From Bretschneidera sinensis (taxonomy: Eukaryota; Streptophyta; Magnoliopsida; Brassicales; Akaniaceae), in NCBI GenBank assembly GCA_023935145.1, contig JALCZK010000044.1, positions 1 through 64,000 on the forward strand: a stretch of 64,000 nt of DNA, read 5' to 3'. Made by a program: the position numbers and the translations under genes. Below, piece after piece: positions 1-64,000 of the stretch. Position 1 is the first letter of the stretch, and every line of letters starts with the position of its first letter. The notes under the pieces were generated by a model, which was not told the DNA's origin, ran no database searches, and was given only the letters and a program-made list of their open reading frames with translations.

Positions 1-545
1 ATGACTTTAAATTTTCCATCAATTAATTTGACCCATGTCCAGTAACCGCATGGTAGTTTTGTTGAATTGAGTTTGACTAATAATTAAAGAGTGAGAGGGA
101 TATAAGTGTCTATTTTCAAATTAAGAAAATGCAAGTGTAATTTTAATATAACGGTTTTTTTTTATTATTTACCCAAACTAGATTACAAACGAGACACCAT
201 TTATTCATGTTAGAAAGTATGAAGAAAAAAAATATATAAACGATGGACAGATGGAGAAGAATGCCTGATGGGAGTCCGCTACTGAATGATGGGCCTTGGC
301 CAGAAACAAAAGCAATACACTTGTATTGTTTATAAAATTCAGTATATTGTATTTCCTAATTGGTTTTTTTTTTCTGGAATATATTTCCCAATTTATTTTA
401 GCTTCTGTAACTTTAACTTTCAAATTTATATTAAGTCTTACATACGTGTAAGTTTTGATTTTTTAATTAATTGGTTTTAGTTTCCTGATAAGACGTAACT
501 TCAATTTTCCTATTTCAGCTTGAAAAAAAATTTCCTATTTTATTA
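1..545. other. Unit 1 upstream AT-rich segment, no gene recognised
   Basis: This segment is AT-rich with homopolymer runs (TTTTTTTT near 155 and 365, AAAAAAA near 226). Short open frames occur on both strands (about 61-74 codons) but they are low in complexity, rich in Phe, Ile and Asn, and start at different ATGs in different units, so I do not call genes. The segment recurs before every ORF. It ends in the promoter-like module described separately. Confidence 0.6.
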
Positions 546-578
546 GGTCTTGTATTTTTAGACCCTATATATTTATAG
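546..578 (+). promoter_or_regulatory. TATA box and abutting GGTCT/AGACC stem of the unit 1 B3-like gene
   Basis: CTATATATTTATAG at 565-578 is a strong plant TATA box, 99 to 86 bases before the ATG at 664. It implies a start near 600 and a 5' leader of about 60 bases rich in CT and CAA. Directly upstream, GGTCT (546-550) and AGACC (560-564) can pair around a 9-base loop. The same arrangement stands at the same distance before the other copies. Variants: unit 2 has TACATATT and unit 15 has TAAATATT, which should weaken the box; units 22-24 have AAACC and lose one stem pair. The ATG context (AAG before ATG, A at -3) is acceptable for plants. Confidence 0.7.
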
Positions 579-663
579 AGCTAGGTTTGTCTATAATTCG
601 CACAAAAACAATAAACAAAATTTCTTTCTTTCAAATCTCTTTTATTTTAAGGCAATATTTAAG

Positions 664-1092
664 ATGTCTTCATTGGATCCTTTTTGGAGTTCTCCTTCCC
701 TAGAGAATGACGCAAAGGATAGCGATGATTTATTGGAGTCATGCTTTCTGAATGAGTACTGGTCATTTAGGAAAGTTTTGTCACATGATGATTTGCAGAG
801 AAAAAGTGAGATTATTCTCTCTCGAACAGAAGTTCAGAGTTTCCTTCCACAAATGAAGCCGAAGGAAATAGAAGACTTGAGTAATGGTAAAGCGGTAGAA
901 ATTCTCTTATATTACATTGACACAAAAGATTCTTTTAAGTTGAAGCTGAAATTTGAAAGTCCTTGTTATTATCTTCGGGACACAACTGAATTTTATGACA
1001 GAAAAGATTTGGCAGCGGAGCAACGGATTGGATTCAGATATGAAAGTCAATTTGCGATGTTGGCTGTTAAACTTCTAAAGAAAAAGATGTAA
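664..1092 (+). CDS. Divergent B3-domain-like protein, unit 1 (consensus copy)
   Basis: The product is a 142-residue intronless protein and this copy equals the array consensus. Residues 1-34 are acidic and Ser-rich with W8 and W33. Residues 35-126 fit a B3 DNA-binding domain: FRKVL followed by a DDL helix start, a hydrophobic stretch L52-F60, G75, beta strands around V78-I85 and F91-F97, YYL at 102-104, F110, L116 and IGFRY at 122-126; the tail ends in basic KLLKKKM. The C-terminal IGFRYE...F...V pattern resembles the REM/DUF313-like B3 proteins of plants. The usual Trp of the W..F motif is missing and EQ (119-120) stands where B3 domains have Gly-Asp, so DNA binding is unproven. The start is the only ATG near a well-placed TATA box. 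The ORF recurs 25 times without an indel. B3-like is my reading of the pattern, not a search result. Confidence 0.72.
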   Translation: MSSLDPFWSSPSLENDAKDSDDLLESCFLNEYWSFRKVLSHDDLQRKSEIILSRTEVQSFLPQMKPKEIEDLSNGKAVEILLYYIDTKDSFKLKLKFESPCYYLRDTTEFYDRKDLAAEQRIGFRYESQFAMLAVKLLKKKM

Positions 1093-1500
1093 TAGATGAG
1101 AAATTTTTTTTTATTTTTTTTTTTTGCGGAGATTGTAGTTGAGGAATAGAAACTTAGCAAATATGGGACCTTATATTAGCATAAGCTATTGCATGGGAAT
1201 TATATTTAATAATGTTTTAAATAGTTTATATAATTAAGATCGTCACTCTCTTTCTATCCTTGCCTAATGATTTATAGCAATTTTCAAATTTATATTATAA
1301 GCTTCTTACTCTACTAGATTGATAGCAATGTAGCATGAGATATGATCGCACGACAGCAATCCTGCAAATTTATTCTATGCTTTACTCAATGATCAGTTGT
1401 TTGCAATCAGCCTCGACATTTTTAATCCAAAAAACGATGTTTTGGCTCTCAAATTGGCAGTTTAATGTTTTTAGGAAACTTTTTATTTTAGTTATTTTAA
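1093..1500. other. Unit 1 3' flank with variable poly-T tract
   Basis: TAATAGATGAG (double stop) is followed by a poly-T tract whose length changes from unit to unit, then GGAGATxGTAGTTGAGGAATAG and about 350 bp of AT-rich DNA. No canonical AATAAA lies close to the stop; AATAATGTTTT near 1209 is the nearest degenerate poly(A)-signal candidate. A 60-codon open frame near 1335-1517 appears in most units but accumulates missense and start changes and matches nothing I know. Confidence 0.5.
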
Positions 1501-1501
1501 T

Positions 1502-1562
1502 TTCAGCCTTAATTTAATTTTTCCTATTTTGATTCGACCTTATAAATAAGGTCTTAGGGTTT
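1502..1562 (+). promoter_or_regulatory. Second promoter-like module, palindromic TATA plus telo-box (unit 1)
   Basis: TTCAGCC (1502-1508) and TTCCTATTTT (1521-1530) are followed by the perfect palindrome GACCTTATAAATAAGGTC (1536-1553), which holds a TATA box, and then TTAGGGTTT (1554-1562), the complement of the plant telo-box AAACCCTAA. The order TTCAGC, TTCCTATTTT, GGTCT/AGACC-type inverted repeat, TATA matches the module before the B3-like ORF, so one may be an old duplicate of the other. No conserved ORF follows; the ATG at 1602 is ATC in many units. It could drive a non-coding transcript or be a fossil LTR-type promoter. The palindrome is GATTCAACC instead of GATTCGACC in units 13 and 22-25, losing the outer pair. 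Confidence 0.45.
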
Positions 1563-1679
1563 CGTAAACATTATTATTGAATTTGCATAATTTTAAATAA
1601 ACATGAGAGCTGTTTCTCTGCATTTTTTTTTTGGGTTTTTCTTTTGTTACTCCCTGTGAACAATCTGTTCGACTAGCCT

Positions 1680-1700
1680 GCAGAATAATTACTATTCTGC
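1680..1700. repeat. Perfect inverted repeat, GCAGAATA arms
   Basis: GCAGAATA (1680-1687) and TATTCTGC (1693-1700) form an 8-bp stem with a 5-base loop. The stem is kept in most units but degraded in units 9, 14, 19, 20, 21 and 23, where TATTCTAC or TATTATAC breaks one or more pairs, without compensating changes. It is more likely a remnant of mobile-element structure than a conserved RNA hairpin. Confidence 0.5.
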
Positions 1701-1859
1701 GCGGCGTCAATAAACCCATGTTTTAATGGCCAGTTAGTAAAAAGATTACTCGTTTAAAGAGTGCAAAATTTATTATCTCCAGAAATTAGGCTTTTGTCTT
1801 GATTGTTAAAGCCCAAGTTTAAAGGATTGAATCAGGAAAAAATTTTGCGTTTGAAGAGG

Positions 1860-3218: not shown

Positions 3219-3647
3219 ATGTCTTCATTGGATCCTTTTTGGAGTTCTCCTTCCCTAGAGAATGACGCAAAGGATAGCGATGATTTATTGGAGTCATGCT
3301 TTCTGAATGAGTACTGGTCATTTAGGAAAGTTTTGTCACATGATGATTTGCAGAGAAAAAGTGAGATTATTCTCTCTCGAACAGAAGTTCAGAGTTTCCT
3401 TCCACAAATGAAGCCGAAGGAAATAGAAGACTTGAGTAATGGTAAAGCGGTAGAAATTCTCTTATATTACATTGACACAAAAGATTCTTTTAAGTTGAAG
3501 CTGAAATTTGAAAGTCCTTGTTATTATCTTCGGGACACAACTGAATTTTATGACAGAAAAGATTTGGCAGTGGAGCAACGGATTGGATTCAGATATGAAA
3601 GTCAATTTGCGATGTTGGCTGTTAAACTTCTAAAGAAAAAGATGTAA
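3219..3647 (+). CDS. Divergent B3-domain-like protein, unit 2
   Basis: This copy is full length and differs from the consensus by A118V. Its TATA box is altered to TACATATT, so expression may be weaker than from unit 1. It belongs to the short-type units. Confidence 0.7.
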   Translation: MSSLDPFWSSPSLENDAKDSDDLLESCFLNEYWSFRKVLSHDDLQRKSEIILSRTEVQSFLPQMKPKEIEDLSNGKAVEILLYYIDTKDSFKLKLKFESPCYYLRDTTEFYDRKDLAVEQRIGFRYESQFAMLAVKLLKKKM

Positions 3648-5770: not shown

Positions 5771-6199
5771 ATGTCTTCATTGGATCCTTTTTGGAGTTCT
5801 CCTTCCCTAGAGAATGACGCAAAGGATAGCGATGATTTATTGGAGTCATGCTTTCTGAATGAGTACTGGTCATTTAGGAAAGTTTTGTCACATGATGATT
5901 TGCAGAGAAAAAGTGAGATTATTCTCTCTCGAACAGAAGTTCAGAGTTTCCTTCCACAAATGAAGCCGAAGGAAATAGAAGACTTGAGTAATGGTAAAGC
6001 GGTAGAAATTCTCTTATATTACATTGACACAAAAGATTCTTTTAAGTTGAAGCTGAAATTTGAAAGTCCTTGTTATTATCTTCGGGACACAACTGAATTT
6101 TATGACAGAAAAGATTTGGCAGCGGAGCAACGGATTGGATTCAGATATGAAAGTCAATTTGCGATGTTGGCTGTTAAACTTCTAAAGAAAAAGATGTAA
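5771..6199 (+). CDS. Divergent B3-domain-like protein, unit 3 (consensus protein)
   Basis: The protein is identical to unit 1. The poly-T tract after the stop is long (about 22 T) and followed by GAGGAGATCGTAG, a long-type variant, although the unit is otherwise short-type. This is one of several foreign patches in unit 3. Confidence 0.72.
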   Translation: MSSLDPFWSSPSLENDAKDSDDLLESCFLNEYWSFRKVLSHDDLQRKSEIILSRTEVQSFLPQMKPKEIEDLSNGKAVEILLYYIDTKDSFKLKLKFESPCYYLRDTTEFYDRKDLAAEQRIGFRYESQFAMLAVKLLKKKM

Positions 6200-8325: not shown

Positions 8326-8754
8326 ATGTCTTCATTGGATCCTTTTTGGAGTTCTCCTTCCCTAGAGAATGACGCAAAGGATAGCGATGATTTATTGGAG
8401 TCATGCTTTCTGAATGAGTACTGGTCATTTAGGAAAGTTTTGTCACATGATGATTTGCAGAGAAAAAGTGAGATTATTCTCTCTCGAACAGAAGTTCAGA
8501 GTTTCCTTCCACAAATGAAGCCGAAGGAAATAGAAGACTTGAGTAATGGTAAAGCGGTAGAAATTCTCTTATATTACATTGACACAAAAGATTCTTTTAA
8601 GTTGAAGCTGAAATTTGAAAGTCCTTGTTATTATCTTCGGGACACAACTGAATTTTATGACAGAAAAGATTTGGCAGCGGAGCAACGGATTGGATTCAGA
8701 TATGAAATTCAATTTGCGATGTTGGCTGTTAAACTTCTAAAGAAAAAGATGTAA
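8326..8754 (+). CDS. Divergent B3-domain-like protein, unit 4
   Basis: Full length with one change, S128I, just after the IGFRYE motif. It replaces a polar residue by a hydrophobic one next to the last predicted beta strand. Confidence 0.7.
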   Translation: MSSLDPFWSSPSLENDAKDSDDLLESCFLNEYWSFRKVLSHDDLQRKSEIILSRTEVQSFLPQMKPKEIEDLSNGKAVEILLYYIDTKDSFKLKLKFESPCYYLRDTTEFYDRKDLAAEQRIGFRYEIQFAMLAVKLLKKKM

Positions 8755-10879: not shown

Positions 10880-11308
10880 ATGTCTTCATTGGATCCTTTT
10901 TGGAGTTCTCCTTCCCTAGAGAATGACGCAAAGGATAGCGATGATTTATTGGAGTCATGCTTTCTGAATGAGTACTGGTCATTTAGGAAAGTTTTGTCAC
11001 ATGATGATTTGCAGAGAAAAAGTGAGATTATTCTCTCTCGAACGGAAGTTCAGAGTTTCCTTCCACAAATGAAGCCGAAGGAAATAGAAGACTTGAGTAA
11101 TGGTAAAGCGGTAGAAATTCTCTTATATTACATTGACACAAAAGATTCTTTTAAGTTGAAGCTGAAATTTGAAAGTCCTTGTTATTATCTTCGGGACACA
11201 ACTGAATTTTATGACAGAAAAGATTTGGCAGCGGAGCAACGGATTGGATTCAGATATGAAAGTCAATTTGCGATGTTGGCTGTTAAACTTCTAAAGAAAA
11301 AGATGTAA
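10880..11308 (+). CDS. Divergent B3-domain-like protein, unit 5 (consensus protein)
   Basis: The protein is identical to unit 1, with one silent change at T55 (ACA to ACG) that recurs in units 13, 20-24 and 25. The upstream half of the unit is short-type while the downstream half is long-type, so the unit looks recombinant. Confidence 0.72.
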   Translation: MSSLDPFWSSPSLENDAKDSDDLLESCFLNEYWSFRKVLSHDDLQRKSEIILSRTEVQSFLPQMKPKEIEDLSNGKAVEILLYYIDTKDSFKLKLKFESPCYYLRDTTEFYDRKDLAAEQRIGFRYESQFAMLAVKLLKKKM

Positions 11309-12581: not shown

Positions 12582-12800
12582 TTAAAGACACGGGCAGTCG
12601 CAGGAATGGCTTCTGCTGCCACAAGTCTTGAGATGTGCTTTGTAATCATACTGAATATCATGTCCTTTAGAGCACTTTTCACAGATGCACTGTTTGTAAT
12701 TGTTATTCTTTTTCCCAAAATGCTTCTTTATATATGTCCTACGGATCTCCCAAGGCATGACATGGGCCACGGTGCAAGCATCTTGGCTATAGACAAACAT
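12582..12800 (-). pseudogene. IDD14/15/16-type zinc-finger fragment, full form (unit 5)
   Basis: The 72-codon minus-strand frame reads through finger 2 (CTVAH...IKKHF), NNYKQCICEKCSKG, a complete C2HC finger 3 (C..C, DYKAHLKTC) and SHSCDC, the start of finger 4. The KAHLKTCG and HSCDC forms are those of the IDD14/15/16 branch rather than KAHSKTCG of the other IDD proteins. The open frame starts at ATG and ends soon after CDC. CTATAG before the homology and CCC/GTGTCT after it could be old splice borders of one exon. Finger 2 lacks its first Cys and last His; with no finger 1 or C-terminal half this cannot be a working IDD protein. Confidence 0.78.
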
Positions 12801-13500
12801 TAACCCTATTCTTCATCTCTGTGTCTCTTGCCCTCTAATGACTTTAAATTTTCCATCAATTAATTTGACCAATGTCCAGTAACCGCATGGTAGTTTTGTT
12901 GAATTGAGTTTGACTAATAATTAAAGAGTGAGAGGGATATAAGTGTCTATTTTCAAACTAAGAAAATGCAAGTGTAATTTTAATATAACGGTTTTTTTTT
13001 ATTATTTACCCAAACTAGATTACAAACGAGACACCATTTATTCATGTTAGAAAGTATGAAGAAAAAAAATATATAAAAGATGGACAGATGGAGAAGAATG
13101 CCTGATGGGAGTCAGCTACTGAATGATGGGCCTTGGCCAGAAACAAAAGCAATACACTTGTATTGTTTATAAAATTCAGTATATTGTATTTCCTAATTGG
13201 ATTTTTTTTTCTGGAATATATTTCCCAATTTATTTTAGCTTCTGCAACTTTAACTTTCAAATTTATATTAGGTCTTACATACGTGTAAGTTTTGATTTTT
13301 TAATTAATTGGTTTTAGTTTCCTGATAAGATGTAACTTCAATTTTCCTATTTCAGCTTGAAAATTTTTTTCCTATTTTATTAGGTCTTGTATTTTTAGAC
13401 CCTATATATTTATAGAGCTAGGTTTGTCTATAATTCACACAAAAACAATAAACAAAATTTCTTTCTTTCAAGTCTCTTTTATTTTAAGGCAATATTTAAG

Positions 13501-13929
13501 ATGTCTTCATTGGATCCTTTTTGGAGTTCTCCCTCCCTAGAGAATGATGCAAAGGATAGCGATGATTTATTGGAGTCATGCTTTCTGAATGAGTACTGGT
13601 CATTTAGGAAAGTTTTGTCACATGATGATTTGCAGAGAAAAAGTGAGATTATTCTCTCTCGAACAGAAGTTCAGAGTTTCCTTCCACAAATGAAGCCGAA
13701 GGAAATAGAAGACTTGAGTAATGGTAAAGCGGTAGAAATTCTCTTATATTACATTGACACAAAAGATTCTTTTAAGTTGAAGCTGAAATTTGAAAGTCAT
13801 TTTTATTATCTTCGGGACACAACTGAATTTTATGACAGAAAAGATTTGGCAGCGGAGCAACGGATTGGATTCAGATAAGAAAGTCAATTTGGGATGTTGG
13901 CTGTTAAACTTCCAAAGAAAAAGATGTAA
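13501..13929 (+). pseudogene. B3-like gene, unit 6, nonsense at codon 126
   Basis: P100H and C101F precede a stop at Y126 (TAT to TAA), leaving 125 residues that lose the last strand and basic tail. After the stop there are further changes (A131G, L138P). All are shared with unit 8, so one mutated copy was propagated to two places. A protein of 125 residues could still be made. Confidence 0.75.
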
Positions 13930-16122: not shown

Positions 16123-16551
16123 ATGTCTTCATTGGATCCTTTTTGGAGTTCTCCCTCCCTAGAGAATGACGCAAAGGATAGCGATGATTTATTGGAGTCA
16201 TGCTTTCTGAATGAGTACTGGTCATTTAGGAAAGTTTTGTCACATGATGATTTGCAGAGAAAAAGTGAGATTATTCTCTCTCGAACAGAAGTTCAGAGTT
16301 TCCTTCCACAAATGAAGCCGAAGGAAATAGAAGACTTGAGTAATGGTAAAGCGGTAGAAATTCTCTTATATTACATTGACACAAAAGATTCTTTTAAGTT
16401 GAAGCTGAAATTTGAAAGTCCTTGTTATTATCTTCGGGACACAACTAAATTTTATGACAGAAAAGATTTGGCAGCGGAGCAACGGATTGGATTCAGATAT
16501 GAAAGTCAATTTGCGATGTTGGCTGTTAAACTTCTAAAGAAAAAGATGTAA
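16123..16551 (+). CDS. Divergent B3-domain-like protein, unit 7
   Basis: Full length with one change, E109K, a charge reversal just before F110 of the YYL...F block. It is intact although both neighbours (units 6 and 8) are broken. Confidence 0.7.
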   Translation: MSSLDPFWSSPSLENDAKDSDDLLESCFLNEYWSFRKVLSHDDLQRKSEIILSRTEVQSFLPQMKPKEIEDLSNGKAVEILLYYIDTKDSFKLKLKFESPCYYLRDTTKFYDRKDLAAEQRIGFRYESQFAMLAVKLLKKKM

Positions 16552-18741: not shown

Positions 18742-19170
18742 ATGTCTTCATTGGATCCTTTTTGGAGTTCTCCCTCCCTAGAGAATGACGCAAAGGATAG
18801 CGATGATTTATTGGAGTCATGCTTTCTGAATGAGTACTGGTCATTTAGGAAAGTTTTGTCACATGATGATTTGCAGAGAAAAAGTGAGATTATTCTCTCT
18901 CGAACAGAAGTTCAGAGTTTCCTTCCACAAATGAAGCCAAAGGAAATAGAAGACTTGAGTAATGGTAAAGCGTTAGAAATTCTCTTATATTACATTGACA
19001 CAAAAGATTCTTTTAAGTTGAAGCTGAAATTTGAAAGTCATTTTTAATATCTTCGGGACACAACTGAATTTTATGACAGAAAAGATTTGGCAGCGGAGCA
19101 ACGGATTGGATTCAGATAAGAAAGTCAATTTGGGATGTTGGCTGTTAAACTTCCAAAGAAAAAGATGTAA
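18742..19170 (+). pseudogene. B3-like gene, unit 8, two nonsense codons
   Basis: It shares P100H, C101F, Y126 stop, A131G and L138P with unit 6 and adds V78L and an earlier stop at Y102 (TAT to TAA). The ORF ends after 101 residues at 19047, in the middle of the B3-like fold. The most decayed copy in the window. Confidence 0.82.
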
Positions 19171-21363: not shown

Positions 21364-21792
21364 ATGTTTTCATTGGATCCTTTTTGGAGTTCTCCTTCCC
21401 TAGAGAATGACGCAAAGGATAGCGATGATTTATTGGAGTCATGCTTTCTGAATGAGTACTGGTCATTTAGGAAAGTTTTGTCACATGATGATTTGCAGAG
21501 AAAAAGTGAGATTATTCTCTCTCGAACAGAAGTTCAGAGTTTCCTTCCACAAATGAAGCCGAAGGAAATAGAAGACTTGAGTAATGGTAAAGCGGTAGAA
21601 ATTCTCTTGTATTACATTGACACAAAAGATTCTTTTAAGTTGAAGCTGAAATTTGAAAGTCCTTGTTATTATCTTAGGGACACAACTGAATTTTATGACA
21701 GAAAAGATTTGGCAGCGGAGCAACGGATTGGATTCAGATATGAAAGTCAATTTGCGATGTTGGCTGTTAAACTTCTAAAGAAAAAGATGTAA
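21364..21792 (+). CDS. Divergent B3-domain-like protein, unit 9
   Basis: Full length with S2F. The same S2F, together with AAATCTTCTTTATTTT just upstream, recurs only in unit 15, which points to a transferred patch across the start codon. Silent changes include L82 (TTA to TTG) and R105 (CGG to AGG), shared with units 10 and 11. Confidence 0.7.
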   Translation: MFSLDPFWSSPSLENDAKDSDDLLESCFLNEYWSFRKVLSHDDLQRKSEIILSRTEVQSFLPQMKPKEIEDLSNGKAVEILLYYIDTKDSFKLKLKFESPCYYLRDTTEFYDRKDLAAEQRIGFRYESQFAMLAVKLLKKKM

Positions 21793-23987: not shown

Positions 23988-24416
23988 ATGTCTTCATTGG
24001 ATCCTTTTTGGAGTTCTCCTTCCCTAGAGAATGACGCAAAGGATAGCGATGATTTATTGGAGTCATGCTTTCTGAATGAGTACTGGTCATTTAGGAAAGT
24101 TTTGTCACATGATGATTTGCAGAGAAAAAGTGAGATTATTCTCTCTCGAACAGAAGTTCAGAGTTTCCTTCCACAAATGAAGCCGAATGAAATAGAAGAC
24201 TTGAGTAATGGTAAAGCGGTAGAAATTCTCTTGTATTACATTGACACAAAAGATTCTTTTAAGTTGAAGCTGAAATTTGAAAGTCCTTGTTATTATCTTA
24301 GGGACACAACTGAATTTTATGACAGAAAAGATTTGGCAGCGGAGCAACGGATTGGATTCAGATATGAAAGTCAATTTGCGATGTTGGCTGTTAAACTTCT
24401 AAAGAAAAAGATGTAA
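23988..24416 (+). CDS. Divergent B3-domain-like protein, unit 10
   Basis: Full length with K67N in the loop between the first helix region and G75. It shares the silent L82 and R105 changes with units 9 and 11. Confidence 0.7.
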   Translation: MSSLDPFWSSPSLENDAKDSDDLLESCFLNEYWSFRKVLSHDDLQRKSEIILSRTEVQSFLPQMKPNEIEDLSNGKAVEILLYYIDTKDSFKLKLKFESPCYYLRDTTEFYDRKDLAAEQRIGFRYESQFAMLAVKLLKKKM

Positions 24417-26607: not shown

Positions 26608-27036
26608 ATGTCTTCATTGGATCCTTTTTGGAGTTCTCCTTACCTAGAGAATGACGCAAAGGATAGCGATGATTTATTGGAGTCATGCTTTCTGAATGAG
26701 TACTGGTCATTTAGGAAAGTTTTGTCACATGATGATTTGCAGAGAAAAAGTGAGATTATTCTCTCTCGAACAGAAGTTCAGAGTTTCCTTCCACAAATGA
26801 AGCCGAAGGAAATAGAAGACTTGAGTAATGGTAAAGCGGTAGAAATTCTCTTGTATTACATTGACACAAAAGATTCTTTTAAGTTGAAGCTGAAATTTGA
26901 AAGTCCTTGTTATTATCTTAGGGACACAACTGAATTTTATGACAGAAAAGATTTGGCAGCAGAGCAACGGATTGGATTCAGATATGAAAGTCAATTTGCG
27001 ATGTTGGCTGTTAAACTTCTAAAGAAAAAGATGTAA
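26608..27036 (+). CDS. Divergent B3-domain-like protein, unit 11
   Basis: Full length with S12Y in the acidic N-terminal part. The upstream region carries the unit 1 variants (GAGTCCGCTAC, TTAAGTCTTAC, ATTCGCAC) while the body carries the unit 9/10 silent changes, so the unit is a mosaic. Confidence 0.7.
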   Translation: MSSLDPFWSSPYLENDAKDSDDLLESCFLNEYWSFRKVLSHDDLQRKSEIILSRTEVQSFLPQMKPKEIEDLSNGKAVEILLYYIDTKDSFKLKLKFESPCYYLRDTTEFYDRKDLAAEQRIGFRYESQFAMLAVKLLKKKM

Positions 27037-28311
27037 TAGGTGAGAAATATTTTTTTTTTTTTTTTTGAGGAGATCGTAGTTGAGGAATAGAAACTTAGCA
27101 AATATGGGACCTTATATTAGCATAAGCCATTGCATGGGAATTATATTTAATAATGTTTTTCATAGTTTATATAATTAAGATCGTCACTCTCTTTCTATCC
27201 TTGCCTAATGATTTATAGCAATTTTCAAATTTATATTATAAGCTTCTTACTCTACTAGATTGATAGCAATGTAGCATGAGATATGATCGCACGACAGCAA
27301 TCCTGCAAATTTATTCTATGTTTTACTCAATGAACAGTTGTTTGCAATCAGCCTCGACATTTTTAATCCAAAAAACGATCTTTTGGCCCTCAAATTGGCA
27401 GTTTAATGTTTATCGGAAACTTTTTATTTTAGTTATTTTAATTGCAGCCTTAATTTAATTTTTCCTATTTTGATTCGACCTTATAAATAAGGTCCTAGGG
27501 TTCCGTAAACATTATTATTGAATTTACATTTTTTTAAATAAACATCAGAGCTGTTTCTCTGCATTGTTTTTTTTTGTTTTTCTAGTGTTACTCCCTGTGA
27601 ACGATCTGTTCGACTAGCCTGCAGAATAATTACTATTCTGCCCAGCGTCAATAAGCCCATGTTTTAATGGGCAGTTAGTAAAAAGATTACGCGTTTAAAG
27701 AGTTCAAAATTTATTATCTCTTGAAATTAGACTTTTGTCTTGATTGTTAAAGCCCAGGTTTAAAGGATTGAATCAGGAAAAATTTTTGCATTTGAAGAGG
27801 CTTGAGTGGCTCATGAGGATAGCTCAAACTCGTCAAAAATTGATTGAGTTGATCTCTAGTTTATGTTTTTAAGCTCAAACTTGGCTCGAATATTTTTTCT
27901 TTCACGAGCCAAGTTGAAACAACCCTTAACTCGAGCTCGGTTTAGCTCGAATCCACCCCTAGTTACATTCAGTCAAAGCTTGGCTTTCAAAAAATTACTC
28001 CATGAAAGATTTGAGAGAAACATCCTATATTTTGGGAATGAATGTCGATATATCCTCAAAAAAACTAATAAGGTTAAAATATTCAGAAATATCATCACAA
28101 ACCCAATAGAGATAAGGAGAAACTGCGGAGACTGAAAAGTTTGTAGGCTTGTCCTTGCTCAACTGCAATTTTCTATTTTTTTTTGTATTTTTTGACTTTT
28201 AGTGAAGGAAGAAAAAGCAAAACCCTTTTTGATTTTCTCTGAAATTTTGATCAATCGGAGGGAAAGATAATCAAAGGAAAAATAAAAGAAAAGGGAAACA
28301 AACATGGAAAT

Positions 28312-28529
28312 TTAAGACACAGGCAGTCGCAGGAATGGCTTCTGCTGCCACAAGTCTTGAGATGTGCTTTGTAATCATACTGAATAACATGTCCTTTAGA
28401 GCACTTTTCACAGACGCACTGTTTGTAATTGTTATTCTTTTTCCCAAAACGCTTCTTTATATATGTCCTACGGATCTCCCAAGGCATGACATGGGCCACG
28501 GTGCAAGCATCTTGGCTATAGACAAACAT
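28312..28529 (-). pseudogene. IDD zinc-finger fragment, stop lost (unit 11)
   Basis: Finger 3 and CDC are in frame, but the terminating TAA is changed (TTTAAGACAC on the plus strand), so the minus frame runs on for about 20 codons into low-complexity sequence. Confidence 0.74.
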
Positions 28530-29230
28530 TAACCCTATTCTTCATCTCTGTGTCTCTTGCTCTCTAATGACTTTAAATTTTCCATCAATTAATTTGACCC
28601 ATGTCCAGTAACCGCATGGTAGTTTTGTTGAATTGAGTTTGACTAATAATTAAAGAGTGAGAGGGATATAAGTGTCTATTTTCAAATTAAGAAAATGCAA
28701 GTGTAATTTTAATATAACGGTTTTTTTTTATTATTTACCCAAACTAGATTACAAACGAGACACCATTTATTCATGTTAGAAAGTATGAAGAAAAAAAATA
28801 TATAAACGATGGACAGATGGAGAAGAATGCCTGATGGGAGTCCGCTACTGAATGATGGGCCTTGGCCAGAAACAAAAGCAATACACTTGTATTGTTTATA
28901 AAATTCAGTATATTGTATTTCCTAATTGGTTTTTTTTTTTCTGGAATATATTTCCCAATTTATTTTAGCTTCTGTAACTTTAACTTTCAAATTTATATTA
29001 AGTCTTACATACGTGTAAGTTTTGATTTTTTAATTAATTGGTTTTAGTTTCCTGATAAGACGTAACTTCAATTTTCCTATTTCAGCTTGAAAAAAAATTT
29101 CCTATTTTATTAGGTCTTGTATTTTTAGACCCTATATATTTATAGAGCTAGGTTTGTCTATAATTCGCACAAAAACAATAAACAAAATTTCTTTCTTTCA
29201 AATCTCTTTTATTTTAAGGCAATATTTAAG

Positions 29231-29659
29231 ATGTCTTCATTGGATCCTTTTTGGAGTTCTCCTTCCCTAGAGAATGACGCAAAGGATAGCGATGATTTAT
29301 TGGAGTCATGCTTTCTCAATGAGTACTGGTCATTTAGGAAAGTTTTGTCACATGATGATTTGCAGAGAAAAAGTGAGATTATTCTCTCTCGAACAGAAGT
29401 TCAGAGTTTCCTTCCACAAATGAAGCCGAAGGAAATAGAAGACTTGAGTAATGGTAAAGCGGTAGAAATTCTCTTATATTACATTGACACAAAAGATTCT
29501 TTTAAGTTGAAGCTGAAATTTGAAAGTCCTTGTTATTATCTTCGGGACACAACTGAATTTTATGACAGAAAAGATTTGGCAGCGGAGCAACGGATTGGAT
29601 TCAGATATGAAAGTCAATTTGCGATGTTGGCTGTTAAACTTCTAAAGAAAAAGATGTAA
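29231..29659 (+). CDS. Divergent B3-domain-like protein, unit 12 (consensus protein)
   Basis: The protein is identical to unit 1. A silent change at L29 (CTG to CTC) is shared with units 20, 21 and 25. The upstream region matches units 1 and 11; the downstream part is short-type with the IDD deletion. Confidence 0.72.
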   Translation: MSSLDPFWSSPSLENDAKDSDDLLESCFLNEYWSFRKVLSHDDLQRKSEIILSRTEVQSFLPQMKPKEIEDLSNGKAVEILLYYIDTKDSFKLKLKFESPCYYLRDTTEFYDRKDLAAEQRIGFRYESQFAMLAVKLLKKKM

Positions 29660-34369: not shown

Positions 34370-34798
34370 ATGTCTTCATTGGATCCTTTTTGGAGGTCTC
34401 CTTCCCTAGAGAATGATGCAAAGGATAGCGATGATTTATTGGAGTCATGCTTTCTGAATGAGTACTGGTCATTTAGGAAAGTTTTGTCACATGATGATTT
34501 GCAGAGAAAAAGTGAGATTATTCTCTCTCGAACAGAAGTTCAGAGTTTCCTTCCACAAATGAAGCCGAAGGAAATAGAAGACTTGAGTAATGGTAAAGCG
34601 GTAGAAATTCTCTTATATTACATTGACACAAAAGATTCTTTTAAGTTGAAGCTGAAATTTGAAAGTCCTTGTTATTATCTTCGGGACACAACTGAATTTT
34701 ATGACAGAAAAGATTTGGCAGCGGAGCAACGGATTGGATTCAGATATGAAAGTCAATTTGCGATGTTGGCTGTTAAACTTCTAAAGAAAAAGATGTAA
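34370..34798 (+). CDS. Divergent B3-domain-like protein, unit 14
   Basis: Full length with S9R (AGT to AGG) next to W8. Silent D16 change (GAC to GAT) shared with unit 6. Confidence 0.7.
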   Translation: MSSLDPFWRSPSLENDAKDSDDLLESCFLNEYWSFRKVLSHDDLQRKSEIILSRTEVQSFLPQMKPKEIEDLSNGKAVEILLYYIDTKDSFKLKLKFESPCYYLRDTTEFYDRKDLAAEQRIGFRYESQFAMLAVKLLKKKM

Positions 34799-36989: not shown

Positions 36990-37418
36990 ATGTTTTCATT
37001 GGATCCTTTTTGGAGTTCTCCTTCCCTAGAGAATGACGCAAAGGATAGCGATGATTTATTGGAGTCATGCTTTCTGAATGAGTACTGGTCATTTAGGAAA
37101 GTTTTGTCACATGATGATTTGCAGAGAAAAAGTGAGATTATTCTCTCTCGAACAGAAGTTCAGAGTTTCCTTCCACAAATGAAGCCGAAGGAAATAGAAG
37201 ACTTGAGTAATGGTAAAGCGGTAGAAATTCTCTTATATTACATTGACACAAAAGATTCTTTTAAGTTGAAGCTGAAATTTGAAAGTCCTTGTTATTATCT
37301 TCGGGACACAACTGAATTTTATGACAGAAAAGATTTGGCAGCGGAGCAACGGATTGGATTCAGATATGAAAGTCAATTTGCGATGTTGGCTGTTAAACTT
37401 CTAAAGAAAAAGATGTAA
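36990..37418 (+). CDS. Divergent B3-domain-like protein, unit 15
   Basis: Full length with S2F as in unit 9. Its TATA box reads TAAATATT, the second weakened box in the array. Confidence 0.68.
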   Translation: MFSLDPFWSSPSLENDAKDSDDLLESCFLNEYWSFRKVLSHDDLQRKSEIILSRTEVQSFLPQMKPKEIEDLSNGKAVEILLYYIDTKDSFKLKLKFESPCYYLRDTTEFYDRKDLAAEQRIGFRYESQFAMLAVKLLKKKM

Positions 37419-38692: not shown

Positions 38693-38911
38693 TTAAAGAC
38701 ACGGGCAGTCGCAGGAATGGCTTCTGCTGCCACAAGTCTTGAGATGTGCTTTGTAATCATACTGAATAACATGTCCTTTAGAGCACTTTTCACAGACGCA
38801 CTGTTTGTAATTGTTATTCTTTTTCCCAAAATGCTTCTTTATATATGTCCTACGGATCTCCCAAGGCATGACATGGGCCACGGTGGAAGCATCTTGGCTA
38901 TAGACAAACAT
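38693..38911 (-). pseudogene. IDD zinc-finger fragment, full form (unit 15)
   Basis: Open frame with DASTVAH, so the Cys of CTVAH is lost as in unit 14; finger 3 ligands are intact. Confidence 0.74.
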
Positions 38912-39612
38912 TAACCCTATTCTTCATCTCTGTGTCTCTTGCTCTCTAATGACTTTAAATTTTCCATCAATTAATTTGACCCATGTCCAGTAACCGCATG
39001 GTAGTTTTGTTGAATTGAGTTTGACTAATAATTAAAGAGTGAGAGGGATATAAGTGTCTATTTTCAAACTAAGAAAATGCAAGTGTAATTTTAATATAAC
39101 GGTTTTTTTTTATTATTTACCCAAACTAGATTACAAACGAGACATCATTTATTCATGTTAGAAAGTATGAAGAAAAAAAATATATAAAAGATTGACAGAT
39201 GGGGAAGAATGCCTGGTGGGAGACAGCTACAGAATGATGGGCCTTGGCCAGAAACAAAAGCAATACACTTGTATTGTTTATAAAATTCAGTATATTGTAT
39301 TTCCTAATTGGTTTTTTTTTTTCTGGAATATATTTCCCAATTTATTTTAGCTTCTGTAACTTTAACTTTCAAATTTATATTAGGTCTTACATACGTGTAA
39401 GTTTTCATTTTTTAATTAATTGGTTTTAGTTTCCTGATTAGACGTAACTTCAATTTTCCTATTTCATCTTGAAAAAAAATTTCCTATTTTATTAGGTCTT
39501 GTGTTTTTAGACCCTATATATTTATAGAGCTAGGTTTGTCTATAATTTACACAAAAACAATAAACAAAATTTCTTTCTTTCAAATCTCTTTTATTTTAAG
39601 GCAATATTTAAG

Positions 39613-40041
39613 ACGTCTTCATTGGATCCTTTTTGGAGTTCTCCTTCCCTAGAGAATGACGCAAAGGATAGCGATGATTTATTGGAGTCATGCTTTCTGA
39701 ATGAGTACTGGTCATTTAGGAAAGTTTTGTCACATGATGATTTGCAGAGAAAAAGTGAGATTATTCTCTCTCGAACAGAAGTTCAGAGTTTCCTTCCACA
39801 AATGAAGCCGAAGGAAATAGAAGACTTGAGTAATGGTAAAGCGGTAGAAATTCTCTTATATTACATTGACACAAAAGATTCTTTTAAGTTGAAGCTGAAA
39901 TTTGAAAGTCCTTGTTATTATCTTCGGGACACAACTGAATTTTATGACAGAAAAGATTTGGCAGCGGAGCAACGGATTGGATTCAGATATGAAAGTCAAT
40001 TTGCGATGTTGGCTGTTAAACTTCTAAAGAAAAAGATGTAA
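39613..40041 (+). pseudogene. B3-like gene, unit 16, start codon lost (ATG to ACG)
   Basis: The body of 141 codons is identical to the consensus, but the start is ACG. The next in-frame ATG is codon 64, which would skip the first half of the fold. ACG can initiate weakly in eukaryotes and A at -3 is favourable, so low-level translation is possible. The clean body shows that the start loss is recent. Confidence 0.62.
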
Positions 40042-42242: not shown

Positions 42243-42671
42243 ACGTCTTCATTGGATCCTTTTTGGAGTTCTCCTTCCCTAGAGAATGACGCAAAGGATA
42301 GCGATGATTTATTGGAGTCATGCTTTCTGAATGAGTACTGGTCATTTAGGAAAGTTTTGTCACATGATGATTTGCAGAGAAAAAGTGAGATTATTCTCTC
42401 TCGAACAGAAGTTCAGAGTTTCCTTCCACAAATGAAGCCGAAGGAAATAGAAGACTTGAGTAATGGTAAAGCGGTAGAAATTCTCTTATATTACATTGAC
42501 ACAAAAGATTCTTTTAAGTTGAAGCTGAAATTTGAAAGTCCTTGTTATTATCTTCGGGACACAACTGAATTTTATGACAGAAAAGATTTGGCAGCGGAGC
42601 AACGGATTGGATTCAGATATGAAAGTCAATTTGCGATGTTGGCTGTTAAACTTCTAAAGAAAAAGATGTAA
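42243..42671 (+). pseudogene. B3-like gene, unit 17, start codon lost
   Basis: ACG start; the rest encodes the consensus protein. By eye the coding part is identical to units 16 and 18, as expected from very recent duplication. Confidence 0.62.
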
Positions 42672-44872: not shown

Positions 44873-45301
44873 ACGTCTTCATTGGATCCTTTTTGGAGTT
44901 CTCCTTCCCTAGAGAATGACGCAAAGGATAGCGATGATTTATTGGAGTCATGCTTTCTGAATGAGTACTGGTCATTTAGGAAAGTTTTGTCACATGATGA
45001 TTTGCAGAGAAAAAGTGAGATTATTCTCTCTCGAACAGAAGTTCAGAGTTTCCTTCCACAAATGAAGCCGAAGGAAATAGAAGACTTGAGTAATGGTAAA
45101 GCGGTAGAAATTCTCTTATATTACATTGACACAAAAGATTCTTTTAAGTTGAAGCTGAAATTTGAAAGTCCTTGTTATTATCTTCGGGACACAACTGAAT
45201 TTTATGACAGAAAAGATTTGGCAGCGGAGCAACGGATTGGATTCAGATATGAAAGTCAATTTGCGATGTTGGCTGTTAAACTTCTAAAGAAAAAGATGTA
45301 A
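44873..45301 (+). pseudogene. B3-like gene, unit 18, start codon lost
   Basis: ACG start, otherwise the consensus protein. Third member of the 2,630-bp triplet. Confidence 0.62.
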
Positions 45302-47503: not shown

Positions 47504-47932
47504 ACGTCTTCATTGGATCCTTTTTGGAGTTCTCCTTCCCTAGAGAATGACGCAAAGGATAGCGATGATTTATTGGAGTCATGCTTTCTGAATGAGTACT
47601 GGTCATTTAGGAAAGTTTTGTCACATGATGATTTGCAGAGAAAAAGTGAGATTATTCTCTCTCGAACAGAAGTTCAGAGTTTCCTTCCACAAATGAAGCC
47701 GAAGGAAATAGAAGACTTGAGTAATGGTAAAGCAGTAGAAATTCTCTTATATTACATTGACACAAAAGATTCTTTTAAGTTGAAGCTGAAATTTGAAAGT
47801 CCTTGTTATTATCTTCGGGACACAACTGAATTTTATGACAGAAAAGATTTGGCAGCGGAGCAACGGATTGGATTCAGATATGAAAGTCAATTTGCGATGT
47901 TGGCTGTTAAACTTCTAAAGAAAAAGATGTAA
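47504..47932 (+). pseudogene. B3-like gene, unit 19, start codon lost
   Basis: ACG start and consensus body with one silent change at A77 (GCG to GCA). Its 3' flank differs from units 16-18 and matches units 20-21, so the start-loss patch has been joined to another subfamily. Confidence 0.62.
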
Positions 47933-50125: not shown

Positions 50126-50554
50126 ATGTCTTCATTGGATCCTTTTTGGAGTTCTCCTTCCCTAGAGAATGACGCAAAGGATAGCGATGATTTATTGGAG
50201 TCATGCTTTCTCAATGAGTACTGGTCATTTAGGAAAGTTTTGTCACATGATGATTTGCAGAGAAAAAGTGAGATTGTTCTCTCTCGAACGGAAGTTCAGA
50301 GTTTCCTTCGACAAATGAAGCCGAAGGAAATAGAAGACTTGAGTAATGGTAAAGCGGTAGAAATTCTCTTATATTACATTGACACAAAAGATTCTTTTAA
50401 GTTGAATCTGAAATTTGAAAGTCCTTGTTATTATCTTCGGGACATAACTGAATTTTATGACAGAAAAGATTTGGCAGCGGAGCAACGGATTGGATTCAGA
50501 TATCAAAGTCAATTTGCGATGTTGGCGGTTAAACTTCTAAAGAAAAAGATGTAA
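50126..50554 (+). CDS. Divergent B3-domain-like protein, unit 20 (most diverged intact copy)
   Basis: Five missense changes: I51V, P62R, K94N, T107I and E127Q. I51V and K94N are shared with unit 21, and I51V also with unit 25. The leader has TTCTTCCAAATC and TTTTTAGGCAAT in place of the usual AAGGCAAT. Full length, and the best case for a functionally distinct variant. Confidence 0.68.
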   Translation: MSSLDPFWSSPSLENDAKDSDDLLESCFLNEYWSFRKVLSHDDLQRKSEIVLSRTEVQSFLRQMKPKEIEDLSNGKAVEILLYYIDTKDSFKLNLKFESPCYYLRDITEFYDRKDLAAEQRIGFRYQSQFAMLAVKLLKKKM

Positions 50555-52747: not shown

Positions 52748-53176
52748 ATGTCTTCATTGGATCCTTTTTGGAGTTCTCCTTCCCTAGAGAATGACGCAAA
52801 GGATAGCGATGATTTATTGGAGTCATGCTTTCTCAATGAGTACTGGTCATTTAGGAAAGTTTTGTCACATGATGATTTGCAGAGAAAAAGTGAGATTGTT
52901 CTCTCTCGAACGGAAGTTCAGAGTTTCCTTCCACAAATGAAGCCGAAGGAAATAGAAGACTTGAGTAATGGTAAAGCGGTAGAAATTCTCTTATATTACA
53001 TTGACACAAAAGATTCTTTTAAGTTGAATCTGAAATTTGAAAGTCCTTGTTATTATCTTCGGGAGACAACTGAATTTTATGACAGAAAAGATTTGGCAGT
53101 GGAGCAACGGATTGGATTCAGATATGAAAGTCAATTTGCGATGTTGGCTGTTAAACTTCTAAAGAAAAAGATGTAA
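52748..53176 (+). CDS. Divergent B3-domain-like protein, unit 21
   Basis: Full length with I51V, K94N, D106E and A118V. It shares its leader and most non-coding variants with unit 20. Confidence 0.69.
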   Translation: MSSLDPFWSSPSLENDAKDSDDLLESCFLNEYWSFRKVLSHDDLQRKSEIVLSRTEVQSFLPQMKPKEIEDLSNGKAVEILLYYIDTKDSFKLNLKFESPCYYLRETTEFYDRKDLAVEQRIGFRYESQFAMLAVKLLKKKM

Positions 53177-55294: not shown

Positions 55295-55723
55295 ATGTCT
55301 TCATTGGATCCTTTTTGGAGTTCTCCTTCCCTAGAGAATGACGCAAAGGATAGCGATGATTTATTGGAGTCATGCTTTCTGAATGAGTACTGGTCATTTA
55401 GGAAAGTTTTGTCACATGATGATTTGCAGAGAAAAAGTGAGATTATTCTCTCTCGAACGGAAGTTCAGAGTTTCCTTCCACAAATGAAGCCGAAGGAAAT
55501 AGAAGACTTGAGTAATGGTAAAGCGGTAGAAATTCTCTTATATTACATTGACACAAAAGATTCTTTTAAGTTGAAGCTGAAATTTGAAAGTCCTTGTTAT
55601 TATCTTCGGGACACAACTGAATTTTATGACAGAAAAGATTTGGCAGCGGAGCAACGGATTGGATTCAGATATGAAAGTCAATTTGCGATGTTGGCTGTTA
55701 AACTTCTAAAGAAAAAGATGTAA
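55295..55723 (+). CDS. Divergent B3-domain-like protein, unit 22 (consensus protein)
   Basis: The protein is identical to unit 1 despite a diverged promoter: AAACCCTATATATTTGTAG breaks one pair of the stem before the TATA box, and the leader has AAAAAGATAAAC. Confidence 0.71.
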   Translation: MSSLDPFWSSPSLENDAKDSDDLLESCFLNEYWSFRKVLSHDDLQRKSEIILSRTEVQSFLPQMKPKEIEDLSNGKAVEILLYYIDTKDSFKLKLKFESPCYYLRDTTEFYDRKDLAAEQRIGFRYESQFAMLAVKLLKKKM

Positions 55724-57898: not shown

Positions 57899-58330
57899 AT
57901 GTCTTCATTGGATCCTTTTTGGAGTTCTCCTTCCCTAGAGAATGACGCAAAGGATGGCGATGATTTATTGGAGTCATGCTTTCTGAATGAGTACTGGTCA
58001 TTTAGGAAAGTTTTGTCACATGATGATTTGCAGAGAAAAAGTGAGATTATTCTCTCTTGAACGGAAGTTCAGAGTTTCCTTCCACAAATGAAGCCGAAGG
58101 AAATAGAAGACTTGAGTAATGGTAAAGCGGTAGAAATTCTCTTATATTACATTGACACAAAAGATTCTTTTAAGTTGAAGCTGAAATTTGAAAGTCCTTG
58201 TTATTATCTTCGGGACACAACTGAATTTTATGACAGAAAAGATTTGGCAGCGGAGCAACGGATTGGATTCAGATATGAAAGTCAATTTGCGATGTTGGCT
58301 GTTAAACTTCTAAAGAAAAAGATGTACTAG
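57899..58330 (+). pseudogene. B3-like gene, unit 23, nonsense at codon 54 and stop codon lost
   Basis: CGA to TGA at R54 (58058-58060) ends translation before most of the B3-like fold; S20G lies upstream. At the 3' end TAA is changed to TAC, adding one Tyr before the next stop. An ATG at codon 64 could start a fragment of about 80 residues, but it has no promoter of its own. Confidence 0.82.
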
Positions 58331-60439: not shown

Positions 60440-60868
60440 ATGTCTTCATTGGATCCTTTTTGGAGTTCTCCTTCCCTAGAGAATGACGCAAAGGATAGCG
60501 ATGATTTATTGGAGTCATGCTTTCTGAATGAGTACTGGTCATTTAGGAAAGTTTTGTCACATGATGATTTGCAGAGAAAAAGTGAGATTATTCTCTCTCG
60601 AACGGAAGTTCAGAGTTTCCTTCCACAAATGAAGCCGAAGGAAATAGAAGACTTGAGTAATGGTAAAGCGGTAGAAATTCTCTTATATTACATTGACACA
60701 AAAGATTCTTTTAAGTTGAAGCTGAAATTTGAAAGTCCTTGTTATTATCTTTGGGACACAACTGAATTTTATGACAGAAAAGATTTGGCAGCGGAGCAAC
60801 AGATTGGATTCAGATATGAAAGTCAATTTGCGATGTTGGCGGTTAAACTTCTAAAGAAAAAGATGTAA
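60440..60868 (+). CDS. Divergent B3-domain-like protein, unit 24
   Basis: Full length with R105W (just after YYL) and R121Q (before IGFRY). Both remove positive charge from the putative DNA-binding part. Leader as in units 22-23. Confidence 0.68.
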   Translation: MSSLDPFWSSPSLENDAKDSDDLLESCFLNEYWSFRKVLSHDDLQRKSEIILSRTEVQSFLPQMKPKEIEDLSNGKAVEILLYYIDTKDSFKLKLKFESPCYYLWDTTEFYDRKDLAAEQQIGFRYESQFAMLAVKLLKKKM

Positions 60869-62140
60869 TAGATGAGAAATTTTTTTTTTTTTTTTTTTTC
60901 GGGGATCGTAGTTGAGGAATAGAAACTTAGCAATATGGGACCTTATATTAGCATAAGCTATTGCATGGGAATTATATTTAATAATGTTTTTCATAGTTTA
61001 TATAATTAAGATCGTCACTCGCTTTCTATCCTTGCCTAATGATTATAGCAATTTTTGAAATTTATATTATAAGCTTCTTACTCTACTAGATTGATAGCAA
61101 TGTAGCATGAGATATGATCGCACGACAGCAATCCTGCAAATTTATTCTATGCTTTACTCAATGATCAGTTGTTTGCAATCAGCCTCGACATTTTAATCCA
61201 AAAAAACGATGTTTTGGCCCTCAAATTGGCAGTTTAATGTTTTTTGGAAACTTTTTATTTTAGTTATTTTAATTTCAGCCTTAATTTAATTTTTTCCTAT
61301 TTTGATTCAACCTTATAAATAAGGTCTTAGGGTTTCGTAAACATTATTATTGAATTTGCATAATTTTAAATAAACATCCGAGCTGTTTCTCTGCATTTTT
61401 TTTTTGTTTTTCTTGTGTTACTCCCTGTGAACGATCTGTTCGACTAGCCTGCAGAATAATTACTATTCTGCCCGGCGTCAATAAACCCATGTTTTAATGG
61501 CCAGTTAGTAAAAAGATTACTCGTTTAAAGAGTGCAAAATTTATTATCTCCAGAAATTAGGCTTTTGTCTTGATTGGTAAAGCCCAAGTTTAAAGGATTG
61601 AATCAGGAAAAAATTTTGCTTTTGAAGAGGCATGAGTAGCTCATGAGCATAGCTCAAACTCGTCAAAAATTGATTGAGTTGATCTCTAGTTTATGTTTTT
61701 AAGCTCAAACTTGGCTCGAATATTTTTTTTTTCACGAGCCAAGTTGAAACAACCCTTAACTCAAGCTCGGGTTAGCTCGAATCCACCCCTAGTTACATTC
61801 AGTCAATGTTTGGCTTTCAAAAAATTACTCCATGAAAGATTTGAGAGAAACATCCCATATTTTTGGAATGAATGTCGATATATCCTCAAAAAAATTAATT
61901 AGGTTAAAATATTCAGAAATATCATCACAAACCCAATAGAGAGAAAGAGAAACTGCTGAGACTGAAAAGTTTGTAGGCTGGTCCTTGCTCAACCGCAATT
62001 TGCTATTTTTTTTTGTATTTTTTGGCTTTTAGTGAAGGAAGAAAAAGCAAAACCCTTTTAGATTTTCTCTGAAATTTTGATCAATCGGAGGGAAAGATAA
62101 TCAAAGGAAAATGAAAAGAAAAAGGAAACAAACATGGAAA

Positions 62141-62359
62141 TTAAAGACACGGGCAGTCGCAGGAATGGCTTCTGCTGCCACAAGTCTTGAGATGTGCTTT
62201 GTAATCATACTGAATAACATGTCCTTTAGAGCACTTTTCACAGACGCACTGTTTGTAATTGTTATTCTTTTTCCGAAAATGCTTCTTTATATATGTCCTT
62301 CCGATCTCCCAAGGCATGACGTGGGTCACGGTGCAAGCATCTTGGCTATAGACAAACAT
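62141..62359 (-). pseudogene. IDD zinc-finger fragment, full form (unit 24)
   Basis: Open frame with WEIGRTYIKKHF and KQCVCEKCSKG; it equals the unit 20 form apart from the deletion there. Confidence 0.74.
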
Positions 62360-63058
62360 TAACCCTATTCTTCATCTCTGTATCTCTCGCTCTCTAATGA
62401 CTTTAAATTTTCCATCAATTAATTTGACCCATGCCCAGTAACCGCATGGTAGTTTTGTTGAATTGAGTTTGACTAATAATTAAAGAGTGAGAGGGATATA
62501 AGTGTCTATTTTCAAACTAAGAAAATGCAAGTGTAATTTTAATATAACGGTTTTTTTTATTATTTACCCAAACTAGATTACAAACGAGACATCATTTATT
62601 CATGTTAGAAAGTATGAAGAGAAAAAATATATAAAAGATGGACAGATGGAGAAGAATGCCTGACGGGAGTCAGCTACAGAATGATGGGCCTTGGCCAGAA
62701 ACAAAAGCAATACACTTGTATTGTTTATAAAATTCAGTATATTGTATTTCCTAATTGGTTTTTTTTATCTGGAATATATTTACCAATTTATTTTAGCTTC
62801 TGTAACTTTAACTTTCAAATTTATATTAGGTCTTACATACGTGTAAGTTTTGATTTTTTAATTAATTGGTTTTACTTTCCTGATAAGACGTAACTTCTAT
62901 TTTCCTATTTCAGCTTGAAAAAAAATTTCCTATTTTATTAGGTCTTGTATTTTTAGACCCTATATATTTATAGAGCTAGGTTTGTCTATAATTCACACAA
63001 AAACAATAAACAAAATTTCTTTCTTCCAAATCTTCTTTATTTTTAGGCAATATTTAAG

Positions 63059-63487
63059 ATGTCTTCATTGGATCCTTTTTGGAGTTCTCCTTCCCTAGAG
63101 AATGACGCAAAGGATAGCGATGATTTATTGGAGTCATGCTTTCTCAATGAGTACTGGTCATTTAGGAAAGTTTTGTCACATGATGATTTGCAGAGAAAAA
63201 GTGAGATTGTTCTCTCTCGAACGGAAGTTCAGAGTTTCCTTCCACAAATGAAGCCGAAGGAAATAGAAGACTTGAGTAATGGTAAAGCGGTAGAAATTCT
63301 CTTATATTACATTGACATAAAAGATTCTTTTAAGTTGAAGCTGAAATTTGAAAGTCCTTGTTATTATCTTCGGGACACAACTGAATTTTATGACAGAAAA
63401 GATTTGGCAGCGGAGCAACGGATTGGATTCAGATATGAAAGTCAATTTGCGATGTTGGCTGTTAAACTTCTAAAGAAAAAGATGTAA
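63059..63487 (+). CDS. Divergent B3-domain-like protein, unit 25
   Basis: Full length with I51V and T87I (ACA to ATA). The leader and I51V link it to units 20-21, about 10-13 kb away. The downstream part of the unit, including its IDD fragment, lies beyond the window. Confidence 0.7.
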   Translation: MSSLDPFWSSPSLENDAKDSDDLLESCFLNEYWSFRKVLSHDDLQRKSEIVLSRTEVQSFLPQMKPKEIEDLSNGKAVEILLYYIDIKDSFKLKLKFESPCYYLRDTTEFYDRKDLAAEQRIGFRYESQFAMLAVKLLKKKM

Positions 63488-64000
63488 TAGATGAGAAATT
63501 TTTTTTATTTTTTTTTTGAGGAGATCGTAGTTGAGGAATAGAAACTTAGCAAATATGGGACCTTATATTAGCATAAGCTATTGCATGGGAATTATATTTA
63601 ATAATGTTTTTCATAGTTTATATAATTAATATCGTCACTCTCTGTCTATCCTTGCCTAATGATTTATAGCAATTTTCAAATTTATATTATAAGCTTCTTA
63701 CTCTACTAGATTGATAGCAATGTAGCATGAGATATGATCGCACGACAGCAATCCTGCAAATTTATTCTATGCTTTACTCAGTGGTCAGTTGTTTGCAATC
63801 AGCCTCGACATTTTGAATCCAAAAAACGATCTTTTGGCCCTCAAATTGCAGTTTAATGTTTTTAGGAAACTTTTTATTTTAATTTCAGCCTTAATTTAAT
63901 TTTTCCTATTTTGATTCAACCTTATAAATAAGGTCTTAGGGTTTCGTAAACATTATTATTGAATTTGCATAATTTTAAATAAACATCAGAGCTGTTTCTC

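Follow-up and report, generated by a model that had tools for sequence, protein, structure and literature searches.

What is a stretch of plant DNA in which every unit of a tandem array carries the same open reading frame (ORF): a set of genes held in hundreds of copies, or a satellite with a coding relic as passenger? The question is raised by contig JALCZK010000044.1 of Bretschneidera sinensis (C44; 100,419 bp, in assembly GCA_023935145.1 of 1.21 Gb and 550 contigs), of which the first 64 kb form the window analysed here. Our preferred reading, to which we give a probability of roughly 0.47, is that the window belongs to a megabase-long plant macrosatellite whose units combine a diverged E1/At2g33720-like B3 ORF with the likely 3' end of a Ty3-gypsy long terminal repeat (LTR), and that selection likely maintains the ORF for a small product of predicted B3 fold, which would work through its dose and not in the manner of a conventional DNA-binding factor.

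The window had been described, from its letters alone, as a tandem repeat of 25 copies of a 2.6-kb unit, and this original prediction holds: 25 ORF copies, all on the plus strand, follow each other at 2541-2631 bp (unit size 2.54-2.63 kb), and the units are 95.3-99.8% identical in pairwise comparison. Each unit consists, in order, of a 302-bp LTR-like piece, a stretch with a minus-strand zinc-finger fragment, a TATA element and a 142-codon ORF; the first two of these parts were absent from the original prediction. Copies were counted across the whole assembly by a 29-base pattern spanning the ORF start codon with up to 3 mismatches, which finds all 25 window copies (19 exactly). The assembly holds 372 such copies, 216 of them exact, and the reversed control pattern gives 0. 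Most lie at one chromosomal place: the main array is on the 162.2-Mb chromosome-scale contig C2, with copies at 154.90-156.11 Mb, some in opposite orientation, and further copies are found on C44 (hits from 661 to 100,357), C375 and C390, so the array is no artefact of one contig. The best 150 of 442 candidate copies are spread as 123 on C2, 16 on C44, 8 on C390 and 3 on C375. At its left edge on C2 the array adjoins a frame with an integrase domain, taken for Ty1-copia, with a PGG-domain frame further out; at C2:156.034 Mb it meets reverse transcriptase, RNase H and integrase frames (Pfam) in Ty3-gypsy order, with more copies beyond. A macrosatellite is a long array, at one or a few loci, of tandem units above 1 kb; with 2.6-kb units and 372 copies in the C2 region and on unplaced contigs, the array qualifies as a plant macrosatellite, roughly a megabase in length. 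An Rfam search of window positions 1-8000 gave no match. The array and its ORF copies in the window are as follows.

1..64000, plus strand: tandem array of 25 units (24 whole, the last cut by the window end)
664..1092, plus strand: B3-family ORF, unit 1, 142 residues, intact
3219..3647, plus strand: B3-family ORF, unit 2, intact
5771..6199, plus strand: B3-family ORF, unit 3, intact
8326..8754, plus strand: B3-family ORF, unit 4, intact
10880..11308, plus strand: B3-family ORF, unit 5, intact
13501..13929, plus strand: B3-family ORF, unit 6, early stop (125 residues)
16123..16551, plus strand: B3-family ORF, unit 7, intact
18742..19170, plus strand: B3-family ORF, unit 8, early stops
21364..21792, plus strand: B3-family ORF, unit 9, intact
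23988..24416, plus strand: B3-family ORF, unit 10, intact
26608..27036, plus strand: B3-family ORF, unit 11, intact
29231..29659, plus strand: B3-family ORF, unit 12, intact
31785..32213, plus strand: B3-family ORF, unit 13, intact
34370..34798, plus strand: B3-family ORF, unit 14, intact
36990..37418, plus strand: B3-family ORF, unit 15, intact
39613..40041, plus strand: B3-family ORF, unit 16, ATG lost
42243..42671, plus strand: B3-family ORF, unit 17, ATG lost
44873..45301, plus strand: B3-family ORF, unit 18, ATG lost
47504..47932, plus strand: B3-family ORF, unit 19, ATG lost
50126..50554, plus strand: B3-family ORF, unit 20, intact
52748..53176, plus strand: B3-family ORF, unit 21, intact
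55295..55723, plus strand: B3-family ORF, unit 22, intact
57899..58327, plus strand: B3-family ORF, unit 23, early stop
60440..60868, plus strand: B3-family ORF, unit 24, intact
63059..63487, plus strand: B3-family ORF, unit 25, intact

One intronless ORF per unit had been claimed. A copy is present in 25/25 units, but only 18 encode the full 142 residues; three contain early stops (units 6, 8 and 23) and four neighbouring ones (units 16-19) have lost the ATG, their ACG start occurring 9 times in the assembly. The ORF appears intronless, as read from the open frame. Among the 150 best-scored of the 442 candidates, 137 span all 142 residues with no stop and 97 tie for the highest score (305.4 bits, 100%) and thus encode identical proteins; this list holds top-scored copies only and yields no rate of intact ORFs.

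The B3-like character of the ORF was confirmed. Its product scores 35.9 bits with a profile for E1/At2g33720-like B3 proteins and ranks first, the best of 5000 shuffles reaching 8.3; the similarity covers residues 28-140 at about 25% identity. A structural model built with E1/At2g33720-like relatives matches plant B3 domains first, as expected of the B3 pseudobarrel. By profile and predicted fold, membership in the E1/At2g33720-like subfamily of the B3 superfamily is secured. Neither PF02362 nor PF03754 is among the Pfam matches up to E 10 of the two ORF copies searched, which is likely a limit of general models, since the profile of nearer relatives does match; many of the 77 family proteins retrieved likewise have no precomputed Pfam domain. 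A PDB sequence search and a single-protein search with the product gave no B3 match, and a first fold of the product (predicted local distance difference test score, 43) was useless and contained no recognisable B3. The PF03754 loci of the genome show at best a weak similarity, with pairwise p 4e-4 for the best of 7 (L036) and a rank of 235 among 1912 scored sequences in the profile comparison, and among 73 matches in other plants no closer relative of the ORF was found.

Is the frame kept by selection? The least variable stretch of the 25 units is the ORF itself: the lowest 429-column stretches of the aligned units start at columns 670-704, and the ORF starts at 668. None of 44 gap runs falls in the ORF, against at least 2 in other stretches of that length. 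Non-synonymous variants are rarer than synonymous ones in the window ORFs (p 0.008), and the ratio of non-synonymous to synonymous diversity (piN/piS) is 0.43 (unit bootstrap 0.30-0.60; 0.42 by a slightly different count), falling to 0.31 in the 18 intact units. The true frame has the lowest ratio, 0.42, the five other frames giving 0.52-1.95; in 1032 non-ORF alignment windows, which overlap and are not independent, the first percentile is 0.57 and none is as low as the ORF. These results suggest that the frame is likely kept by selection, a conclusion that is supported, not settled. In our reading, the constraint, if real, would act in the array core and would have arisen with or after amplification.

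Several observations weigh against selection on the frame. Compared with copy E1 (C2:156.030-156.034 Mb, at the array boundary), the array consensus diverges by 3.5% in the ORF and 3.6% in the flanks; compared with the dispersed copy L081 (C2:70.78 Mb), by 5.6% and 6.4%. The non-synonymous to synonymous counts are 10:5 and 19:3 (plus 2 stops), respectively, and look neutral. Taken by itself, the number of non-synonymous variants in the window shows no reduction (p 0.25; p 0.08 for singletons), and synonymous variants are scarce as well, with 10 where 17 are expected (p 0.05); boundary units show a weak effect (1.6% against 2.1%). Seven of the 25 window ORFs are broken, and of the six complete ORFs at the boundaries two are intact, one has an early stop and three are without a stop codon. 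The gap deficit is partly expected because the ORF has no A/T runs of 6 or more, the flanks having 112 such bases; gene conversion could also lower diversity in the ORF. C-to-T variants concentrate at CG sites both in the ORF (8/18, against 4/131 other C) and outside it (19/59, against 54/554), with p about 1e-5 or less in each case. This is the pattern that CG methylation would leave and hints at germ-line CG methylation of the array. The excess at CG sites and the broken boundary ORFs slightly weaken the gene reading and strengthen its rival, in which the array is an ordinary long satellite made from a decayed fragment (B3 and IDD zinc finger) and an LTR piece, the ORF being a young passenger with diversity lowered by recent conversion or amplification. 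We regard such a passenger origin as quite possible, short of even odds: besides the points above, the IDD piece next to the ORF is clearly incomplete, and plant satellites derived from retrotransposons are described in passages of PMC7004042. It does not readily account for a diversity trough that sits on the ORF, nor for a piN/piS matched by none of the non-ORF windows and lower still in intact units; conversion alone should not favour a single reading frame. Of additional note, C-to-T variants at other C are rarer in the ORF than outside it (p 0.013), which would fit gene-body-like methylation but might also reflect simple constraint.

The product retains 15 of 38 family-conserved positions; a W invariant in 40/40 relatives is deleted, a D of 40/40 has become Q120, and E49 is acidic where 36/40 relatives have R or K. 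The first 30 residues hold 1 K/R and 7 D/E, and no E1-type bipartite nuclear signal was found in the product. These changes make it improbable that the array raises the dose of a still DNA-binding, E1-like repressor, an idea suggested by family membership, the predicted fold and the role of soybean E1 as a floral repressor (in passages of PMC6331540). The term transcription-factor-like gene, used in the original prediction, is supported as to a B3-family ORF in each unit; a working transcription factor would go beyond what the sequence shows. It is very improbable that the copy number was inflated in assembly, by expansion of a few real units or by counting both haplotypes. Unit spacings on C375 mirror the end of C44, and one of the two could be the other haplotype, so the assembly copy number is uncertain; similar flanked blocks also recur on C2 at about 155.45, 155.93 and 156.03 Mb. 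Against an artefact, window units differ by 0.2-4.7% and have private variants, the array on C2 meets other sequence both at its left edge and at 156.034 Mb, and some 38 units are expected on C44 alone from its size. Under our preferred reading of a selected, dosage-acting protein, transcription of each unit would start from the TATA promoter that it carries, the AATAAA of the LTR piece could end the transcript, and the resulting protein would consist of a B3 domain whose DNA-contact surface is altered and which lacks an E1-type nuclear signal. Our simplest guess from the sequence is that such a protein would be a competitor or partner of ordinary B3 proteins. A stronger version, which we consider unlikely, would make the array the plant equivalent of D4Z4: several hundred complete small genes in one selected array, with their own TATA promoters and an LTR-supplied poly(A) signal, whose DNA-contact-altered B3 protein tunes E1-type B3 regulators by dose, copy number being a heritable dial.

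The array also carries a likely record of its birth, in the junction with the LTR-like end and in ancestral-type copies at its boundary. The LTR-like linker is present in 25/25 units, the last cut by the window end, and all 25 copies contain TATAAATA and AATAAA.

1408..1709, plus strand: 302-bp linker of unit 1, putative Ty3-gypsy LTR 3' end

It is 92.4% identical to the sequence that directly follows the gypsy pol frames at C2:156.034 Mb and shares with it the same end, ...GGCGTCA; the comparison covers one side of the element, the second LTR lying outside the compared DNA. The linker is thus likely the 3' end of a Ty3-gypsy LTR. A single-copy founder had been proposed as something to look for. 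L081 is a single copy in which unit positions 1710-2623 and 1-1394 are contiguous and 92-94% identical to the array, with no match to the linker in the 4 kb examined, but its ORF is broken by two stops. Another candidate, at C5:83.12 Mb, was rejected: within the DNA examined it matches only unit positions 1708-2117 and has no ORF. L081 aligns co-linearly with copy E1 for 3.3 kb (92%) and with E1's neighbouring copy for 2.9 kb. Counting L081 itself, its upstream flank is found nearly complete at 20 places (17 others in the C2 array region, 1 each on C390 and C5); a monomer without linker after such a flank was read only in L081, E1 and E1's neighbour. Taken together, the LTR-like piece likely marks the founding junction of the array unit. 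Dispersed copies of a locus that combined the B3 ORF with a degraded IDD zinc-finger fragment would have come first; a gypsy element lies next to one copy, near C2:156.03 Mb. The LTR-like end would then have become attached upstream of the 2.3-kb monomer. A tandem duplication would have completed the unit, with its junction at a short AAT shared by the LTR interior and the downstream flank of the monomer, after which unequal exchange would have raised the number to the 372 assembly copies. We infer this order (LTR joining, tandem duplication, amplification) from the junctions observed. Beside the ancestral-type copies lies an imperfect self-inverted repeat of about 700 bp (73-74%; L081:31-738 and C2:156028458-156029196), likely a transposon. 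A piece of about 60-70 bp at L081:1282-1350 recurs in 11 further scattered places on C1, C2, C5, C6 and C9, as a transposon end would.

The remaining parts of the unit include the TATA element and the zinc-finger fragment.

566..577, plus strand: TATA element upstream of the unit 1 ORF, exact in 22/25 units
12585..12812, minus strand: IDD/BIRD zinc-finger fragment, unit 5
28254..28541, minus strand: IDD/BIRD zinc-finger fragment, unit 11
38696..38923, minus strand: IDD/BIRD zinc-finger fragment, unit 15, 76-codon open frame (PF22995, E 1.4e-7; JACKDAW 5b3h, E 2.9e-9)

A TATA box in every unit had been reported; the element, TATATATTTATA, stands about 100 bp before the ORF, exact in those 22 units and one base off in the other 3. 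IDD/BIRD zinc-finger proteins have four fingers. In the three minus-strand IDD frames tested, all of at most 96 residues, the third C2HC finger of JACKDAW-type proteins (PF22995) is the sole Pfam match, and the piece, found in each unit, does not hold the several fingers in one protein of an IDD/BIRD gene. Being a fragment, and one that a 73-bp deletion interrupts in 7 of the 24 units that can be read, it probably does not form a second gene of the unit. At about 1980-2020 of the unit consensus, a stretch rich in AGCTCG motifs ends in ATCCACCCCTA and resembles what we take to be a common plant end of miniature inverted-repeat transposable elements.

Gene-bearing macrosatellites are best known from mammals. 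The comparison with human D4Z4/DUX4 made in the original prediction is fair as to layout, a B3-family ORF lying in each of the 25 units, much as DUX4, a transcription-factor-type retrogene, is embedded in each unit of the large D4Z4 repeat (in passages of PMC5849414). Unlike D4Z4, the array has B3 domains rather than homeodomains, a plant host, a 2.6-kb unit and an LTR-like piece per unit. It resembles the retrotransposon-derived satellites of Lathyrus sativus, as portrayed in part of PMC7004042, in its long arrays of units containing LTR-retrotransposon sequence; here a gene-bearing monomer is joined to a likely LTR end. Like legume E1, At2g33720-like and At1g78640-like proteins, the product is short and B3-like; unlike them, it lacks a bipartite nuclear signal and many family positions, and is encoded in hundreds of tandem copies. 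Legume E1 genes proper have no intron and a bipartite nuclear signal upstream of the domain, according to sections of PMC4942777, and the array product falls outside that family by lacking the signal. Among the papers listed by our searches of open-licence literature, none described a macrosatellite of plants that carries a B3 or E1-like gene. Hundreds of units in one genome offer material for measuring frame-specific selection. Should the protein indeed be produced, the number of copies would represent a novel form of regulation for a protein family that governs flowering time in legumes.

Elsewhere in the genome there are 15 E1-type B3 matches, 4 with an internal stop; 10 lie within one megabase at C2:67.3-68.3 Mb, about 2.5-3.5 Mb from L081. 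A second tandem cluster, at C4:132.94-133.21 Mb (L082, L083), contains short B3 frames of 121-175 residues that match PF02362. Two of these were tried as relatives of the array ORF and rejected as not close. The C4 frames are repeated at distances of the order of tens of kb, and several form pairs with about 9 kb between the members.

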